Source: Verrucomicrobium sp. BvORR106 (GTDB lineage Bacteria; Verrucomicrobiota; Verrucomicrobiia; Verrucomicrobiales; Verrucomicrobiaceae). Taken from it: a stretch of DNA of 64,000 bases. Under the pieces are notes generated by a model, which was not told the DNA's origin, ran no database searches, and saw only the letters and a program-made list of their open reading frames with translations. The stretch is taken from NCBI RefSeq assembly GCF_000739655.1, contig NZ_BATR01000069.1:1-64000 (forward strand), written 5' to 3'. Shown piece after piece: positions 1,401-37,302 of this stretch. How positions within the stretch are numbered: position 1 is the first letter of the stretch; the number at the start of each line of letters is the position of its first letter. A program made the position numbers and the translations under genes.

Positions 1401-3446
1401 ATGCTGTTTCTCCGCCAGTTGCTGGCTGCCGTGTGCGGTCTGGGTTGCAGCGCATTCGCTGCGACCCCGGTGAAGCTGGAAGCGGTGGCGGCGACGACGT
1501 CGGAGCAGTCGCATTTTGCGGAGGCGGTGGATGGGATCCTGTCGCCGGCGAATGGCTGGCAGGTGCCGCGTTCGACGGAGCACGCGGGCGTCTTTCGCTG
1601 TGTGCCAGCGATGGCTGCGGGGCGTGTGCGGTTCATTTTTTCATTCCATGGTGCGGGGAAGAATAGCTATTTTTCCGAGTTCTCGATCTCAACGACGAGT
1701 GATCCCAATCCCTCATTGGAGAGCCGCTGGGTGCCCCTTTTCCTGACGGGTTGGGATGCCAATCAAGGCTGGGTGGGCGAGGCTCGACCCAATGTGCGCA
1801 TGCTGGGCGACACCAGCAAATCAGACCTCCAGCTCGATGGGCTGATCTCACAGGAGCATATCACCGGAGTTCGGATCCAGTCCTGGGTGTTGCCCTCTGC
1901 CCGACCGGGGGCGGCCGTGCTGACCGAACTGAAGATGGAGCGGATGCCCATGGGGACCACGAACGTTGCACTGGGGTGCCCAGTCACAGCCAGCCATGCC
2001 CTCGCGCCGAATCAGCAGCCTGAATTCCTCACTGACGGGTTGGTAGGCAGCTTCGCGTATCCAGACGGGGTTCGAGGACCGGAGTTCTACTTCGAGGTGG
2101 ATCTGCGACATGTCCGCGAGTTCGATCACATCACCTTGAGGGGGCGCTCGGAGGCCTCCGCGATGAACCGTTTTACAAACTTGCGCCTGGACCTCTACGA
2201 TGAAATGCCGGGGGAAAATGTGCCCGCGCTCTGGACCTGGGTGGAGGAGAGGGCTGGTGAAGTGCAGGAACCGGGCGAGGTGAAGGTGGTACGCGGAGCG
2301 GATGGTGAGGGCACGTTCCGCGGACGCTGGCTGCGCATCTCCAAGACGGTCACGATCAGCCATACGCCGCAGATTGCGGAGGTGGAAGTGTATGAATCTG
2401 TGGTGCCTCAAGACCTGAAGGTGCTGGCGGACGATCTTGTCCTGCCGCAGGGGGACCCGGTTCGAGTTCCGCCGGAGGTACGGCGGCTTGGGTTCTCGAC
2501 AGTGCAGCCCGAACTGCCAGACGGGCTGGTGCTGGAGCGGCGCTGGCGGCTGGCCGGGATGGGTGATAAATGGCTGCCGGCTCCCAACACCGGCCTCATT
2601 GAGAGTTTCGGGCTGCCTGCGGGCGAATATCTTTTTGAGGCGCAGGTCCGGCACAGTGACCGGGAGTGGAACAGCGCTTCGTTGCGCGTCCCACTGACCG
2701 TGCTGGCGCCCTGGTGGGAGAATCCTTGGGCAAGGCTGGCCGTCGCGCTGGCCGCCGTGGGGATCGTCGCCCTGCTGGCCTGGAATTTTTCCCGCCGTCG
2801 ACTTGCCCGGCAGCTCGCCGAGATGGAGCGCAGTCAGGAACTCTCCCGGGAGCGGGCGCGAATCGCCCGGGATATGCATGATGTGGTGGGCGCACGGCTC
2901 ACGCAGCTTACCGTGATGCATGAGCTCTTTGCCAGGCAGGAGTCGCTGACTCAGACAACCCGCGCGCGCCTTCAGGAATTGGGGGCGACCGCGCGGGATG
3001 CGGTCGGGGCGCTCGACGAGGCGGTGTGGGCGGTGAACCCGCGCAATGACACCCTGCAGAATCTTGCCGACTACCTCTGTCATGCCGCCAGCAGCTACCT
3101 GCGCCCGCTCGACATCCGGCTGCGGCAGCAAGTGCCGGTGACGTGGCCCGAGCGCGAGGTCGGCGCGCAAAAGCGCCACCAGTTCCTCCTCGCATTCAAG
3201 GAAGGGCTGCAGAATGTCGTCAAACATGCTGGCGCCACCACCGTCACGCTCATCCTCCGTTTTGAAGATCCGGTGCTGGTGGTTTGCCTTGATGACAACG
3301 GTTGCGGCCTGCCGAAAGACACCGATGGTATGGAGAAAGACGGGCTCGACAACATGGGTGCCCGACTCGCTGCGGTCGGCGGTGTTTGCATTGCAAAAAC
3401 CCTCGCCGAAGGGGGCACCCGAGTAGAGTTCCGTCTGCCCATCTAA
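1401..3446 (+). CDS. Sensor histidine kinase (HisKA_3/NarL type) with exported discoidin-like sensor
   Basis: Membrane sensor kinase of the NarX/DesK class. In order it has a signal peptide (MLFLRQLLAAVCGLGCSAFA), a periplasmic beta-rich region whose middle (about residues 185-330) resembles an F5/8 type C (discoidin-like) carbohydrate-binding domain, a Y_Y_Y-like strand segment, one transmembrane helix near residues 446-463, a short coiled coil, a HisKA_3 dimerisation domain with phospho-acceptor His493 in IARDMHDVVGARL, and a HATPase with N-box GLQNVVKHAG and G1 box DDNGCGLP. A GTG at 1380 is an alternative start; I prefer the ATG because the signal peptide begins there. The response regulator follows 12 bp downstream. 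The sensor layout suggests glycan sensing, which is inference. Confidence 0.9.
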   Translation: MLFLRQLLAAVCGLGCSAFAATPVKLEAVAATTSEQSHFAEAVDGILSPANGWQVPRSTEHAGVFRCVPAMAAGRVRFIFSFHGAGKNSYFSEFSISTTSDPNPSLESRWVPLFLTGWDANQGWVGEARPNVRMLGDTSKSDLQLDGLISQEHITGVRIQSWVLPSARPGAAVLTELKMERMPMGTTNVALGCPVTASHALAPNQQPEFLTDGLVGSFAYPDGVRGPEFYFEVDLRHVREFDHITLRGRSEASAMNRFTNLRLDLYDEMPGENVPALWTWVEERAGEVQEPGEVKVVRGADGEGTFRGRWLRISKTVTISHTPQIAEVEVYESVVPQDLKVLADDLVLPQGDPVRVPPEVRRLGFSTVQPELPDGLVLERRWRLAGMGDKWLPAPNTGLIESFGLPAGEYLFEAQVRHSDREWNSASLRVPLTVLAPWWENPWARLAVALAAVGIVALLAWNFSRRRLARQLAEMERSQELSRERARIARDMHDVVGARLTQLTVMHELFARQESLTQTTRARLQELGATARDAVGALDEAVWAVNPRNDTLQNLADYLCHAASSYLRPLDIRLRQQVPVTWPEREVGAQKRHQFLLAFKEGLQNVVKHAGATTVTLILRFEDPVLVVCLDDNGCGLPKDTDGMEKDGLDNMGARLAAVGGVCIAKTLAEGGTRVEFRLPI

Positions 3447-3458
3447 CCTGCCGCGACC

Positions 3459-4109
3459 ATGCCCATCCGCATTGCCATGATCGAAGACGATCAACCGTTC
3501 GCCCGGACGTTGCAGCAGTACTTTGAGCTCATGCCCGCCGTGACGTGCGAGGCTGTTTTTCCCAGTGCGGAAGAGGCCCTGCTCGGAGTCCCCTCGCTCG
3601 CGCCTGAGGTGCTGCTGGTGGACATCAATCTGCCCCAAAAGAGCGGCATCGAGTTCGTCGATGAGATTGTGCAACAATGTCCCGGCATCCTCTGCCTGAT
3701 GCTGACGATGTATGAGGAGAGTCCGCTCATCTTTGATGCGCTCAAGGCCGGTGCGTGTGGCTATCTGCTCAAGCGCACCCCGCCGCAGGAGATCGTCACC
3801 GCCATCGAAGAAGCGAAGGCGGGCGGTTCGCCCATGACGCCCCAGATCGCGCGCCGGGTGGTTGGTTTCTTTCAGGGTGAGCAACCCCGCCCCGTGGCGG
3901 CCTCACCGCCAGATGACACCCTCGCACTCGCCGAGCGGGAGCGCGAGGTGCTGGACCTCCTCACGCAAGGCTATCTCTACAAGGAGATCGCTGACAGCTT
4001 GCAGCTCTCCGTGCACACTGTGAACACCTACGTCCGCCGCATTTACGAAAAGCTGCAGGTGCGCTCACGCAGCCAGGCGGTGGCCAAGTATCGCGGGTTC
4101 GCGGAGTAA
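3459..4109 (+). CDS. NarL/FixJ family DNA-binding response regulator
   Basis: Partner of the histidine kinase 12 bp upstream. The receiver domain fills residues 1-125, with acidic pocket residues in MIEDDQ, phospho-acceptor Asp55 in LLVDINLP, and the conserved Lys in LLKRTPP. A LuxR-type helix-turn-helix occupies about residues 150-210 (LAEREREVLDLLTQG, KEIADSLQLSVHTVNTYVRR). At 216 residues it has the normal length for the family. Such regulators bind inverted half-sites as dimers. The 20-bp inverted repeats found in front of several enzyme genes here are candidate targets, and the nearest lies 42 bp past this gene's stop codon. That link is inference. Confidence 0.93.
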   Translation: MPIRIAMIEDDQPFARTLQQYFELMPAVTCEAVFPSAEEALLGVPSLAPEVLLVDINLPQKSGIEFVDEIVQQCPGILCLMLTMYEESPLIFDALKAGACGYLLKRTPPQEIVTAIEEAKAGGSPMTPQIARRVVGFFQGEQPRPVAASPPDDTLALAEREREVLDLLTQGYLYKEIADSLQLSVHTVNTYVRRIYEKLQVRSRSQAVAKYRGFAE

Positions 4110-4150
4110 GGGCCAAAAAGTTGGCCCCCGCCGTGGAGAGGCGGGTACGT

Positions 4151-4170
4151 TGTAGCGAGTTCTAGCTACA
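4151..4170. promoter_or_regulatory. Copy 2 of the 20-bp palindrome
   Basis: TGTAGCGAGTTCTAGCTACA matches the consensus at 17 of 20 positions, with complementary outer arms (TGTAGC/GCTACA). It sits between the response-regulator stop and the start of the GH16-cytochrome fusion at 4204. It could act as an operator for that gene; a role as a repeat or terminator is not excluded, although no T-tract follows. Confidence 0.45.
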
Positions 4171-4203
4171 TGCAAGAGGGGCGAGGGTGGCTGATGTTGG
4201 TCG

Positions 4204-6255
4204 ATGGACTGGATCTTCCCTTTCGTGTCTCTGTCTGCACGACAAACCCTTGCATCGCGCGGGGCCGGCCTGATGTTTCTTGGTTTGATGGCGGGCGGGC
4301 TGGCGCTTTCTGCAGCAGGTGCCAAAGGGGAGGTTGAGCCAGTCAACGCCAGGCTGGTGCCGACACCGTCGGCCACAAGCGCCACAAATTCCGGGGAGTG
4401 GAAGCTCGTCTGGCAGGATGAGTTCGAGGGCTCGGCGCTCGACGAAACGAAATGGAGCCATCGGCAGGTGGGCCCGCGCGAGGGGGCGATGATCGCAAAG
4501 GAGTGTGTGTCACTGGATGGCCGGGGGCATCTGGTGATGACGGTGTTTGAAAAAGACGGCGTGCTGCAGAACCCGATGATCGGTACGCAGAAAAAGTTAG
4601 AGCCCACTTACGGGAAGTTCGCCGCGCGGATCAAATTCCCGGAGCAGCAGGGCCAGCACGGGAGCTTCTGGATGCAGCCGGCGGTGAAGAGCACCGCGGT
4701 GAACAATCCGGCGCTCACGGGCGCGGAGATCGACATCATTGAGTGGTTTGGCGCGGGGCGGCCGGATGGTGGTACGGCCTCGAACCTCTACTGGCACGGT
4801 CCCTCCGGGCCGAAGGAGCACCACGCGGGCGGAACCAAACCCTTTGGCCTGCTGCGCGAAGGCGAGAAACTGTCCGATGATTTCCATGTCTTCGCCGTGG
4901 AGTGGAGCCCGGAAGGGTACGTGTTCAGCATGGACGATCAGGTGACCTACCGCATCCGCGAGGGGGTGTCCCGCGTGCCGCAATACATGATCCTGAGTCT
5001 GCTCACCGCAGACTGGGAAAAGGACCGGCTTGATCGCACGAAGCTGCCCGACTCGATGCTGGTGGACTGGGTGCGCGTGTGGCAGAAGGACGCCGCCCCG
5101 GTTGTGGCTGAAAAGATTTCCTTTAACCACGATGTGCGTCCGATCTTTTCGGACAAGTGTTTCGCCTGCCACGGCACGGATGCGAAGCACCGCGAGGCCG
5201 GGCTGCGGCTCGATACGCCGGAGGGCGCGTATCAAAACAACGACGGCGTGATCGCGATCACGCCGGGCGACCTCAAAAAGAGCGAGGCTTGGCTGCGCAT
5301 CATCACCGACGACGAGGACGATGTGATGCCGCCGCCGAAGTCGCACAAGACGCTGTCGAAGGCGGAGAAGGATCTGATCCGCCGGTGGATCGAGCAGGGG
5401 GCAGGCTATGAAAAGCACTGGTCGTTTGAGCCGCCCGTGAAGGTGTCGCCACCGCCGGTGAAGGCCAAGGAGCGCGTGCGCAATCCGATTGATGCCTTCC
5501 TTTTTTCAAAGCTGGACCAGCTCGGGCTCGCGCCGTCTCCAGAGGCGGACAAGGCGACGCTGATCCGCCGCGCGACGCTGGCCATCACGGGGCTGCCGCC
5601 CACGCCGGAGGAAGTGGACGCCTTCCTCGCGGACGCTTCACCCGATGCCTACAAGGTCCTGGTGGACCGGTTGCTCGACTCGCGTCGCTTTGGCGAGCAC
5701 ATGGCGCACTGGTGGCTGGACCTTGCGCGTTACGGAGACACCCACGGGCTGCACCTGGATAACGAGCGCTCCATCTGGTTGTATCGCGATTGGGTCATTG
5801 GCGCATTCAATCGGAATCTGCCGTTCGACCGCTTCACCATCGAGCAGCTCGCCGGTGATCAACTCCCCGACGCCACCAACGAGCAGAAGATCGCCAGCGG
5901 CTTCAACCGCTGCAATGTCACGACCAGCGAAGGCGGCGCCATCGGGGCAGAGTTCCTTTTCCGCTATGCCCTGGATCGCACGGCGACGACCGCGCAGACA
6001 TGGCTGGGGCTCACCGTGCAGTGCGCGGCCTGCCATGATCACAAGTTCGATCCCATCTCGCAGAAGGAAGTTTATCAGCTCTACGCCTTCTTCAACTCCA
6101 CGGCCGATCCCGCGATGGATGGCAACAAGATGCTGACCGAGCCCGTGTTGAAGAACGGCAGTCCGGAGCAGATGCGGCAACTCACCGAGCTTGGCACCCA
6201 GATTGCCGCGGCGCAAAAGAAGCTCACGGAGGCCGTGGCCAGCGTGGATTACTAG
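4204..6255 (+). CDS. GH16 domain fused to PSCyt1 cytochrome and DUF1549 (N-terminal part of interrupted gene)
   Basis: Residues about 25-300 form a second GH16 hydrolase with signal peptide (MFLGLMAGGLALSAAGAKGE), catalytic motif GAEIDIIEWFG and terminal VDWVRVWQ strand. Without a break it runs into a planctomycete-type cytochrome C domain (heme motif CFACH, residues 319-323) and a DUF1549 domain (from NPIDAFLFSKLDQLG; a second CAACH lies near residue 611). The frame ends at TAG 6253-6255 in a position where homologs continue (VDY-stop-DPAEG), and the same frame runs on to 8145 as the matching DUF1553 half. DUF1549/DUF1553 proteins are a PVC-specific family often beside sulfatases and polysaccharide enzymes, with unknown chemistry. 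The fusion of a glycanase to this cytochrome is unusual. Either the gene is broken, or there is readthrough or a sequence error. The ATG at 4273 is an alternative start. Confidence 0.85.
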   Translation: MDWIFPFVSLSARQTLASRGAGLMFLGLMAGGLALSAAGAKGEVEPVNARLVPTPSATSATNSGEWKLVWQDEFEGSALDETKWSHRQVGPREGAMIAKECVSLDGRGHLVMTVFEKDGVLQNPMIGTQKKLEPTYGKFAARIKFPEQQGQHGSFWMQPAVKSTAVNNPALTGAEIDIIEWFGAGRPDGGTASNLYWHGPSGPKEHHAGGTKPFGLLREGEKLSDDFHVFAVEWSPEGYVFSMDDQVTYRIREGVSRVPQYMILSLLTADWEKDRLDRTKLPDSMLVDWVRVWQKDAAPVVAEKISFNHDVRPIFSDKCFACHGTDAKHREAGLRLDTPEGAYQNNDGVIAITPGDLKKSEAWLRIITDDEDDVMPPPKSHKTLSKAEKDLIRRWIEQGAGYEKHWSFEPPVKVSPPPVKAKERVRNPIDAFLFSKLDQLGLAPSPEADKATLIRRATLAITGLPPTPEEVDAFLADASPDAYKVLVDRLLDSRRFGEHMAHWWLDLARYGDTHGLHLDNERSIWLYRDWVIGAFNRNLPFDRFTIEQLAGDQLPDATNEQKIASGFNRCNVTTSEGGAIGAEFLFRYALDRTATTAQTWLGLTVQCAACHDHKFDPISQKEVYQLYAFFNSTADPAMDGNKMLTEPVLKNGSPEQMRQLTELGTQIAAAQKKLTEAVASVDY

Positions 6256-35855: not shown

Positions 35856-35869
35856 GGGGGAGGGGGGAG

Positions 35870-35985
35870 TTGAGATGTGCCGCAAGCGGCACGTTGAGAC
35901 GCTGCGCTGGTTGAGACGCTGCGCTGGTTGAGACGCAGCCGCCGGTGCGGCTGCTGGTTGAGACGTTCCGCATGCGCGACTGGTT
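35870..35985. repeat. Short tandem GTTGAGACGCTGCGCTG repeats with hairpins
   Basis: A 17-bp unit GTTGAGACGCTGCGCTG occurs twice exactly and then in variant forms that all begin GGTTGAGACG. Hairpins GTGCCG-CAAG-CGGCAC and CAGCCG-CCGGTG-CGGCTG lie within it. It starts 15 bp after the patatin stop, so it could affect transcript ends. Confidence 0.7.
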
Positions 35986-36050
35986 GATGGGTGCCGCCGC
36001 CACGGACGTGAAACAAAGGAGTGCCGCCATTGCGGGATAAGCCGGAGGAG

Positions 36051-36350
36051 ATGGGCTCCGGTGGTGTTTGTACGGGGCTCGAACCTCACAAGGGGCGCGA
36101 AAGCGGTGATGCTCACCGCAGTCCCAAAGCGGCTGCGCCGCCAGGTGTTGGGGAACGTGAGGGAGAGGGGGAGTCTGGGGGCTTGAGAGGTCGTGGGGAC
36201 GTTTGACTGAGGGCTTCTGCGAGATGCAGAAGCCGGCACGCTGGAAGCGTGCGGTTTCCGGTGAGTCTAGGGCGTCGCAGGGCAGATTGGGGAGCGCACG
36301 TATCCATGCGTGTTGTTCCCGGCATCTGCCGGGAATGTCAGTCGCGTACT
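36051..36350. repeat. Dispersed repeat R1, copy d, plus double-hairpin unit
   Basis: 36051-36260 is a full copy of R1, nearly identical to copy c. 36291-36350 carries the second unit with a GCACGTATCCATGCGTGTTG-type stem and TTCCCGGCA/TGCCGGGAA hairpin, as at 44012. Together with the tandem repeats at 35870 these fill the 35856-36408 gap. Confidence 0.75.
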
Positions 36351-36408: not shown

Positions 36409-36702
36409 CTAAGACTTGTACGCGTTGGCCAGTTTGCCAGATGAAGTGAGTATCCCAGAGTCGATGAGCGACTGGATACGCTCTTTTTTGGTCATGACTT
36501 TGACTCTCGCGACCGCTGCATCCAAGTCCTTTTGCTGGATTCCTGAAACGCTGACACCCGTCAATAGAGGGGCTTTGCTCGATTTTCGGACGATCTTCGA
36601 GCGAATGCGAGGCTTCTTGCTGACTGCCAGCTTCCGAACGGCACTCTTGACCGATGACTTCTTACGAGCCCCGATAGTAGATTTGCGCCGAGTTGCTGCC
36701 AT
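36409..36702 (-). CDS. Small Lys/Arg-rich protein, possible partner or antitoxin of the ART-like gene
   Basis: Protein of 97 residues. The first half is very basic and Ser-rich (ATRRKSTIGARKKSSVKSAV), as in nucleic-acid binding tails. The second half looks folded and helical (KDLDAAVARVKVMTKKERIQ) and ends in SLIDSGILTSSGKLANAYK, a form common at the end of small proteins in toxin-antitoxin pairs. It begins 21 bp after the stop of the ART-like gene on the same strand, so the two are likely one transcript. I do not recognise a named family. Its role as antitoxin or DNA-binding partner is inference from size, charge and coupling. Confidence 0.6.
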   Translation of the reverse strand: MAATRRKSTIGARKKSSVKSAVRKLAVSKKPRIRSKIVRKSSKAPLLTGVSVSGIQQKDLDAAVARVKVMTKKERIQSLIDSGILTSSGKLANAYKS

Positions 36703-36723
36703 GGTAAAAGGGTCGCAGAGAAA

Positions 36724-37302
36724 CTACGAAACGTCAAGGCTGCCCGCAGGCACGAAATAGCCGATAATTGATGCGGGGTCCCGGACAGCGATCTGGATGT
36801 GAGACTTTTCGAATATGTAACCGGTAGGGTAGATTGGGGTGCCCTCCAAAAACACTCCCCGGACTGTATGAAACTTAGAGGATGAGATGGATTCGACCCT
36901 GGGAATGGCCCAGTCGATGAAAGCGCAGTCCAGTCGATGAAGGTAGGGTGTGTTCTTGGGGAGTGCCGCTCCAGATGCGACCATCGCTTTTTCAAACTCA
37001 GGCCACAGTGTCTTGAGGTATCTGGTGAAGCGAAGGTCGAGCAAGTCAAAACAATTGCCGAGCTGGATCAGCGCACCAATTTTTGATGGTTTCGCGATCC
37101 TCGTTTTTTTGCGTTTTGCCACTTCCTTTGCCCAATCCATGGCTCTTGCGGGCCCGTTCTCCCAGAAGTAGATGCCTCGTCCAAGCCAGTCGTAGTCGTT
37201 GCGGCTCTCATTCAATGGAATTCCGCGAAGTGCCGAATCTACCAAAGATTGATCGCAACCATGATAAGCGGTGACGAGGCGTTGATATTCGAAGAATGCC
37301 AT
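36724..37302 (-). CDS. Putative ADP-ribosyltransferase-like protein (YHGCD/GRGIYFWE family)
   Basis: Protein of 192 residues. The N-terminal part has the order expected of an ADP-ribosyltransferase fold: LVTAYHGCDQSLVDSALRG (His-like NAD-binding strand), then NDYDWLGRGIYFWENGPARA (G-x-G-F/Y-x-T-like strand with aromatic residues). These blocks resemble DUF3990-like and other ART-superfamily proteins. The C-terminal half (FHTVRGVFLEGTPIYPTGYI, FEKSHIQIAVRDPASIIGYF) contains candidate catalytic Glu positions. I have assigned the start to ATG 37302 (MAFFEYQRL); a TTG at 37338 is less likely. There is no signal peptide, so it acts in the cytoplasm. The following Lys-rich gene makes this a candidate toxin-antitoxin or defence pair. 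The family is suggested, not proven. Confidence 0.6.
   Translation of the reverse strand: MAFFEYQRLVTAYHGCDQSLVDSALRGIPLNESRNDYDWLGRGIYFWENGPARAMDWAKEVAKRKKTRIAKPSKIGALIQLGNCFDLLDLRFTRYLKTLWPEFEKAMVASGAALPKNTPYLHRLDCAFIDWAIPRVESISSSKFHTVRGVFLEGTPIYPTGYIFEKSHIQIAVRDPASIIGYFVPAGSLDVS

Follow-up and report, generated by a model that had tools for sequence, protein, structure and literature searches.

What does a pair of adjoining small genes, encoding a predicted ADP-ribosyltransferase (ART) and a short basic partner, do in the genome of Verrucomicrobium sp. BvORR106? The pair occupies positions 36409-37302 of the first 64,000 nucleotides of contig NZ_BATR01000069.1 (the window, by which we mean the whole stretch analysed here), and the original prediction, made from the letters of the DNA, had read it as a two-gene unit of the kind seen in mobile defence or toxin-antitoxin pairs. 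Overall, we believe this unit is likely to be a mobile, chaperone-free, CmdT-like type II toxin-antitoxin module. The comparison is with CmdTAC, the renamed PD-T4-9 (PMC9519451), which is described as an anti-phage toxin-antitoxin-chaperone system of E. coli ECOR22 whose toxin is an mRNA ADP-ribosyltransferase (PMC11618068, PMC9519451); that toxin, CmdT, is reported to ADP-ribosylate adenines in GA of single-stranded RNA (PMC11618068).

The first protein and its resemblance to CmdT

Both open reading frames (ORFs) exist on the minus strand, which the original prediction left unstated, and both begin with ATG. Gene 1 (36724..37302) has 192 codons and a stop, gene 2 (36409..36702) encodes 97 residues, and a spacer of 21 bp (36703..36723) separates them, just as had been proposed. 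The longest frame of gene 1, of 204 aa, opens 12 codons earlier with a TTG; the ATG was chosen because the ORF of one relative, L007, starts there mechanically, and in the remaining alignment rows of gene 1 relatives the start was placed by hand at the matching position. Nine close-relative comparisons (five of the ART and four of the partner, with the window sequences in none) gave ratios of nonsynonymous to synonymous substitution (dN/dS) of 0.04-0.25; by this measure purifying selection acts on both genes in the relatives. We reject a reading of the unit as two chance ORFs on these ratios together with the pairing described below.

The YHGCD and GRGIYFWENGPARA segments that first suggested an ART are present in the gene 1 protein, and the predicted fold is ART-like. 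The best of five AlphaFold2 models, built with a 13-row alignment, has a predicted local distance difference test (pLDDT) score of 89.3 and a predicted template modelling (pTM) score of 0.85. Compared with the PDB by VIA-align, it lies closest to NatT (Z 8.1), tankyrase 2 (8.0), MbcT (7.5) and diphtheria toxin (7.3), with the caution, given by the tool itself, that Z below 8 may reflect merely a common arrangement. PARPs (including tankyrases and PARP13), NatT, MbcT or diphtheria toxin account for 49 of the best 50 VIA-align matches (Z 7.2-8.1), the remaining one being an insecticidal protein whose class is not evident from its title; a DarT row is absent from these best 50, which excludes nothing. 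Foldseek places PARP1 and PARP4 (E 5e-3 to 1.3e-2) ahead of NatT (2.4e-2), ART-PolyVal-like proteins are among the best matches of the model in a viral structure library, and the Pfam PARP family is matched by four of 13 ART relatives (best E 0.0077). Neither window protein matched any Pfam or NCBIfam family at E<=5, RES and Xre included, and PDB sequence searches with the ART gave weak matches only, which we take as chance.

In genome contigs, gene 1 has 14 relatives that share 36-60% identity with it. The wider set comprises 112 loci: the window and what is left of 115 after L001, L053, L065 and L066 were set aside. Of these, 110 have an ART ORF (L039 and L112 have none), and they fall into 88 clusters at 90% identity. 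Across the cluster representatives, H14 (codon 37261..37263, minus strand) is a histidine in 83/83 that cover its column, five of the 88 having a gap there; Y45 of the WLGxGxYFW motif (37168..37170, minus strand) is a tyrosine in 84/84; and Q170 of the HIQI motif (36793..36795, minus strand) is a glutamine in 82/82. All 77 representatives with all three columns carry the complete HYQ triad. In two CmdT proteins a motif tyrosine lines up with Y45 and the IQI is also found, and Q170, located by sequence position and not by superposition, would have its catalytic role as the third triad member. On the strength of a confident model and a conserved triad, we regard gene 1 as a protein of ART-like fold and of the H-Y-[EDQ] kind, a predicted ADP-ribosyltransferase.

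The original prediction could match this family to none of DarT, Tre or ParT, a statement with which our family scans are consistent; what it overlooked was a relative, CmdT of CmdTAC. The PADLOC model PD-T4-9_A matches residues 10-61 of gene 1 (E 4.6e-6, over 53 of the 191 profile positions, 6-58) and is matched by all 13 aligned ART relatives. For a fuller comparison we used the CmdT proteins of two genuine CmdTAC loci from Bacteroidota, the phylum of genome G260, and not E. coli CmdT; a SecB search of plasmids had returned ordinary SecB only. The two toxins score 272 and 223 bits to PD-T4-9_A, and the chaperones at their loci 185 and 168 bits to PD-T4-9_C, whereas the window toxin reaches at most 24 bits to PADLOC models. 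Even so, the profile of the window ART family aligned with these two CmdT proteins in hhalign at 94.2% (E 1.1e-7), with the WLGxGxYFW, CFDL and IQI motifs collinear, and in the genome search the ART profile reaches one of the two (E 9.8e-5). The likeness to CmdTAC thus takes in an ART toxin of similar length, the collinear motifs, the HY-[EDQ] type of active site and a small partner gene. Judged by these profiles, gene 1 is a distant relative of CmdT, orthology not being implied.

At the same time, we reject full membership in CmdTAC, because no match was found to a SecB-like chaperone, which in that system lies within two genes of CmdT. The window unit has two genes, not three, and SecB (PF02556) has no match at E<=0.01 in the whole genome, which is 99.94% complete; five of 14 control genomes were positive in the same search. 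For the partners, hhalign of the partner family against two CmdA-position proteins gave 2.2%, CmdA itself being variable; as far as sequence comparison reaches, there is kinship between the toxins and none detectable between the partners. SecB profiles, run against every ORF at the loci that make up the 88 clusters, with flanks of a few kb at most, found a single locus, L052, whose ART is the lowest-scoring (49 bits) and where the studied partner family was not found. Chaperone and partner are therefore mutually exclusive in this set, on one chaperone case. The locus itself (phage contig MT837118.1, from human faecal samples) carries at 3342-4722 an unannotated CmdTAC-like trio of ART, 81-aa ORF and SecB-like ORF.

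The partner family and its pairing with the ART

The second protein has the very basic head that had been claimed for it: residues 1-45 (36568..36702, minus strand) hold 17 lysines or arginines and no aspartate or glutamate, and this stretch is probably disordered (ten-residue block means of pLDDT 57-70 over residues 1-50). The conserved core, residues 57-97 (36412..36534, minus strand), is modelled confidently as helices at 57-69 and 72-81 followed by SGILTSSGKLANAY, with block means of 91-96 from residue 61; the model as a whole has pLDDT 76.5 and pTM 0.40. Foldseek gave no match for it (best E 5.1), the two helices being what can be said of its fold. A Pfam search with 13 partners yielded one weak unrelated match, and by sequence the partners form a small separate family. 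The low E-values of the partner profile against designed armadillo repeats, in which no stretch passes alone, were taken as spurious, as were its other, marginal matches. A basic head is not peculiar to the window's clade, for one also occurs in some partners encoded upstream of the ART (L096, L097 and L109), and many partners of that type are headless and just 53-60 aa long; as guesses at the role of the head, we would offer nucleic acid binding for autoregulation, or substrate mimicry.

The pairing of the two genes is conserved well outside the window. A partner profile built from 12 seed loci, of which the window locus is one (its own partner scores 56 bits), was searched against 6344 ORFs with a cutoff of E<=0.1. 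Of the 76 held-out clusters, 52 have a partner next to the ART on the same strand, 37 of them upstream and 15 downstream, and two further partners, on the opposite strand at L011 and in an ORF overlapping the ART end at L023, bring the pairing to 54/76; the held-out clusters include seed relatives and are thus not fully independent. The toxin-antitoxin-like pairing envisaged at the outset therefore has a counterpart in many other loci, and on both counts, an ART-like fold and conserved pairing, the original prediction is supported. A second-round profile, trained on the first-round matches and searched at E<=1, finds the partner in 79/88 clusters plus L011 and L023. Extra partner matches in the representatives' loci comprise the tandem copies (L037 and L042, E 4e-9) and two more of marginal score (E 0.19 and 0.24). 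At L037 and L042, two tandem partner genes stand beside one ART; the partner sequences are the same and may represent one event.

Whether upstream and downstream partners belong together can be judged from cross-detection, with the proviso that the sequences used had been picked with the second-round profile. A profile of upstream partners finds 17/23 downstream partners at E<=0.1 and no other ORF among the representatives, and a profile of downstream partners finds 29/56 upstream partners along with three further ORFs, of which two are the tandem copies; with shuffled ORFs the same threshold gave 0 matches. One partner family is therefore present in both arrangements. In the ART tree, which covers 77/88 clusters (ORFs <150 aa or <140 bits being excluded), 72 of them labelled, the two gene orders separate by one change with support 99/96, against a mean of 16 in shuffles, 0/500 of which were as low; the bootstrap had not settled, and the order labels of L011, L015, L023 and L034 were set by hand. 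The downstream clade includes the window, further Verrucomicrobiota and three viral contigs; planctomycete and myxobacterial relatives fall there too but are uncounted. Among 68 genomes of the window's taxonomic family, 25 have an ART match and 23 a partner match, and 23/27 partner matches adjoin an ART.

Distribution, mobility and surroundings

ART genes of this family have a patchy occurrence and appear under record names of seven phyla (Verrucomicrobiota, Planctomycetota, Myxococcota, Bacteroidota, Pseudomonadota, Campylobacterota and Cyanobacteriota), with the same-strand pair in five of the seven: it was not found in the planctomycete, and the myxobacterium has an opposite-strand arrangement only. 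Pairs are also present on plasmids and viral contigs. In G260's phylum the ART profile matches 9/296 genomes, five of them strongly (G260, the centre, included), and one weak match is a genuine CmdT. The ART lies on 66 of 72,556 plasmid records, of which 35 are predicted conjugative, seven mobilizable and 24 neither; gene surroundings were examined for 15 records, and among 60 records listed the gene is annotated as 'hypothetical protein' in 58, one having no feature there and one no annotation. A further 35 loci are on viral contigs, cyanophage S-B28 among them. The phage family phrog_14664, function unassigned, is matched by 13/13 ART relatives (best 2.1e-25) and by residues 10-173 of the window protein (E 4.8e-15); its library entry gives no function or partner, and on sequence it is probably the phage counterpart of this very family. 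In the Synechococcus phage S-B28 (L051, 2302-2812) a partner-like ORF precedes the first part of an ART with another tail (117 aa), which could be a decoy or a remnant.

The unit in the window is single-copy in its own genome, and its guanine-cytosine content is 51.9% against a mean of 61.3% (standard deviation 3.2), with 0.2% of same-size stretches as low. In the congener G067, the match to the neighbouring repeat (36043-36151) and the match to the next gene (37496 on) lie 119 bp apart, compared with 1344 bp in the window; this is good but not perfect proof, at the sequence level, that the unit is absent at the matching place, imperfect because the bordering repeat is dispersed. In the stretch of G065 that was compared, the right flank alone matches, plus a 38-bp piece. 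The repeat said to adjoin the unit is real (36043..36347) and lies outside the module; pieces of it of ~50-300 bp recur at many sites, both in this genome and in two congeners. Farther out, at 35856-35987, there are short direct repeats around GCTGGTTGAGACG with 17-nt spacing, which are likewise found at many other places in the genome and the congeners. Of ten neighbour proteins scanned, six match Pfam families, none of them out of the ordinary: two have Ig/lectin-like domains, and the others belong to patatin, polysaccharide pyruvyl transferase, DUF1552 and PSD/cytochrome families. A promoter scan found 0 against 0.7 expected, and terminator-like sites numbered 3 against 1.5 expected; neither was used as evidence. 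The window contains no tRNA.

Competing readings and the proposed mechanism

In the mechanism we propose, gene 1 would be an H-Y-[EDQ] ADP-ribosyltransferase of a sister lineage of CmdT that binds NAD+ and attaches ADP-ribose to an acceptor, for which single-stranded RNA, the substrate of CmdT, is the likeliest candidate, so that growth stops. Gene 2 would be a small helical protein that binds and silences gene 1, perhaps aiding its folding; its designation as an antitoxin draws on the pairing and the precedent of CmdA. Were the labile gene 2 product lost, for example upon infection or loss of the element, gene 1 would be freed and arrest would follow. Enzymatic activity, toxicity, neutralisation, the RNA target and a role in defence or addiction are all things we infer for this unit. 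Given an active enzyme, we put the chance of an RNA target at about even, because of common descent with CmdT and the shared aromatic motifs, and a defence role is plausible by analogy, because of the CmdT kinship and the mobile setting.

Several observations weigh against a CmdT-like toxin-antitoxin module, and to them belong the narrow span of the PADLOC match, the low VIA-align scores and the dependence of the later profile and the cross-test on earlier matches, all given above. One of the five gene 1 models is poor (pLDDT 60.6), and Foldseek found nothing for gene 1 in the PDB at E<=0.001 (best 5e-3, with TM-scores ~0.3-0.4). The partner has no known relative, so that 'antitoxin' rests on context. 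A partner match is missing from 22/76 held-out clusters in the first round and from 7/88 in the second (L015, L034, L052, L055, L056, L077 and L087); by eye, a partner is visible at L034 and possibly at L015 and L056, L052 is the CmdTAC-like case, and none was seen at L077 and L087. Conversely, 4/27 partner matches in the family genomes have no ART next to them, two being weak; the clear lone partners are in G067 (L134), a congener without an ART match, and G047 (L135), which also has none. The asymmetry typical of toxin-antitoxin systems, with lone partners common and lone toxins rare, was considered and not upheld, because lone ARTs (7/88) and lone partners (4/27) are about equally rare. Six of 40 ART matches in the window's family have in-frame stops (L034, L036 and L039, for example), and ART copies seem to decay often. 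A PADLOC search (E<=1e-4) of eight neighbours gave no match.

The structural neighbours of gene 1 invite another explanation, namely an NAD-consuming toxin (an NADase or NAD phosphorylase) that, like RES-domain toxins, would kill by NAD depletion and mark no macromolecule. NatT and MbcT, which we take to be NAD-degrading RES-type toxins, are among those best neighbours (Z 8.1 and 7.5), and the RES-Xre systems to which they belong, NatRT and MbcTA, are two-gene modules. RES-Xre toxins are described as degrading NAD (PMC9503650). Tankyrase 2 and diphtheria toxin, however, lie within 1 Z of NatT and MbcT, the sequence kinship detected is to CmdT, a transferase, and neither the window proteins nor the 13 partners, with their one unrelated Pfam match, point to RES or Xre; we consider NAD depletion quite unlikely. 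DarTG is likewise an ART toxin with a partner gene, but the window partner, at 97 aa, has no macrodomain or NADAR match and PADLOC gives no DarT match for gene 1. If gene 1 is indeed an ART toxin, its target might be DNA, tRNA, rRNA or protein instead of mRNA, a possibility we would take seriously without favouring it: ARTs switch targets within families, and the similarity to CmdT is weak, its PADLOC part being confined to profile positions 6-58. The aromatic WLGxGxYFW block and the IQI held in common with two CmdT proteins argue the other way.

For gene 2, the alternative to an antidote is a protein that activates gene 1 or helps it fold, since CmdA is likewise needed for the accumulation and toxicity of CmdT: CmdT is reported as non-toxic alone and toxic together with CmdA (PMC11618068, PMC9519451), so the window partner might act in the same way, a point that also weighs against our preferred reading. 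In CmdTAC, however, CmdA is described as doubling as the antitoxin (PMC11618068), and the occurrence of gene 2 relatives without an ART match in G067 and G047 fits an antidote somewhat better, without being decisive; a pure folding factor seems to us unlikely, if less so than NAD depletion. The toxin kinship would also be accommodated if the module were CmdTAC itself with a diverged antitoxin and a chaperone encoded elsewhere in the genome, and CmdA is described as variable and often unannotated (PMC11618068). The genome-wide PF02556 result, with its positive controls, and the restriction of SecB to the one cluster locus that has no studied partner make this very improbable.

We return, then, to a two-gene, CmdT-like toxin-antitoxin module. 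No description of such a module was found in the titles and abstract openings of the open-access literature, and the pair is unnamed in the curated libraries searched, its relative CmdTAC being already known. Going further, and tentatively, we suggest that the pair may represent a broad, unnamed toxin-antitoxin family that is a chaperone-free sister of CmdTAC, perhaps its ancestral form, in which a small antitoxin directly silences an RNA-modifying ART; we would hold this with well under even confidence, though a little more readily than a target other than mRNA. CmdT is described as founding a class of mRNA-modifying ARTs with a broad distribution (PMC11618068), and it has been described within a three-gene, chaperone-controlled system. 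In this context, a related ART with one small partner, whose relatives carry names from seven phyla and lie on 66 plasmid records, would open both the substrate range of the toxin and the origin of chaperone control to test, and many 'hypothetical' genes would gain a testable function. If the family is indeed a sister of CmdTAC, setting the two lineages side by side would reveal how a plain toxin-antitoxin module gained, or lost, a phage-sensing chaperone.
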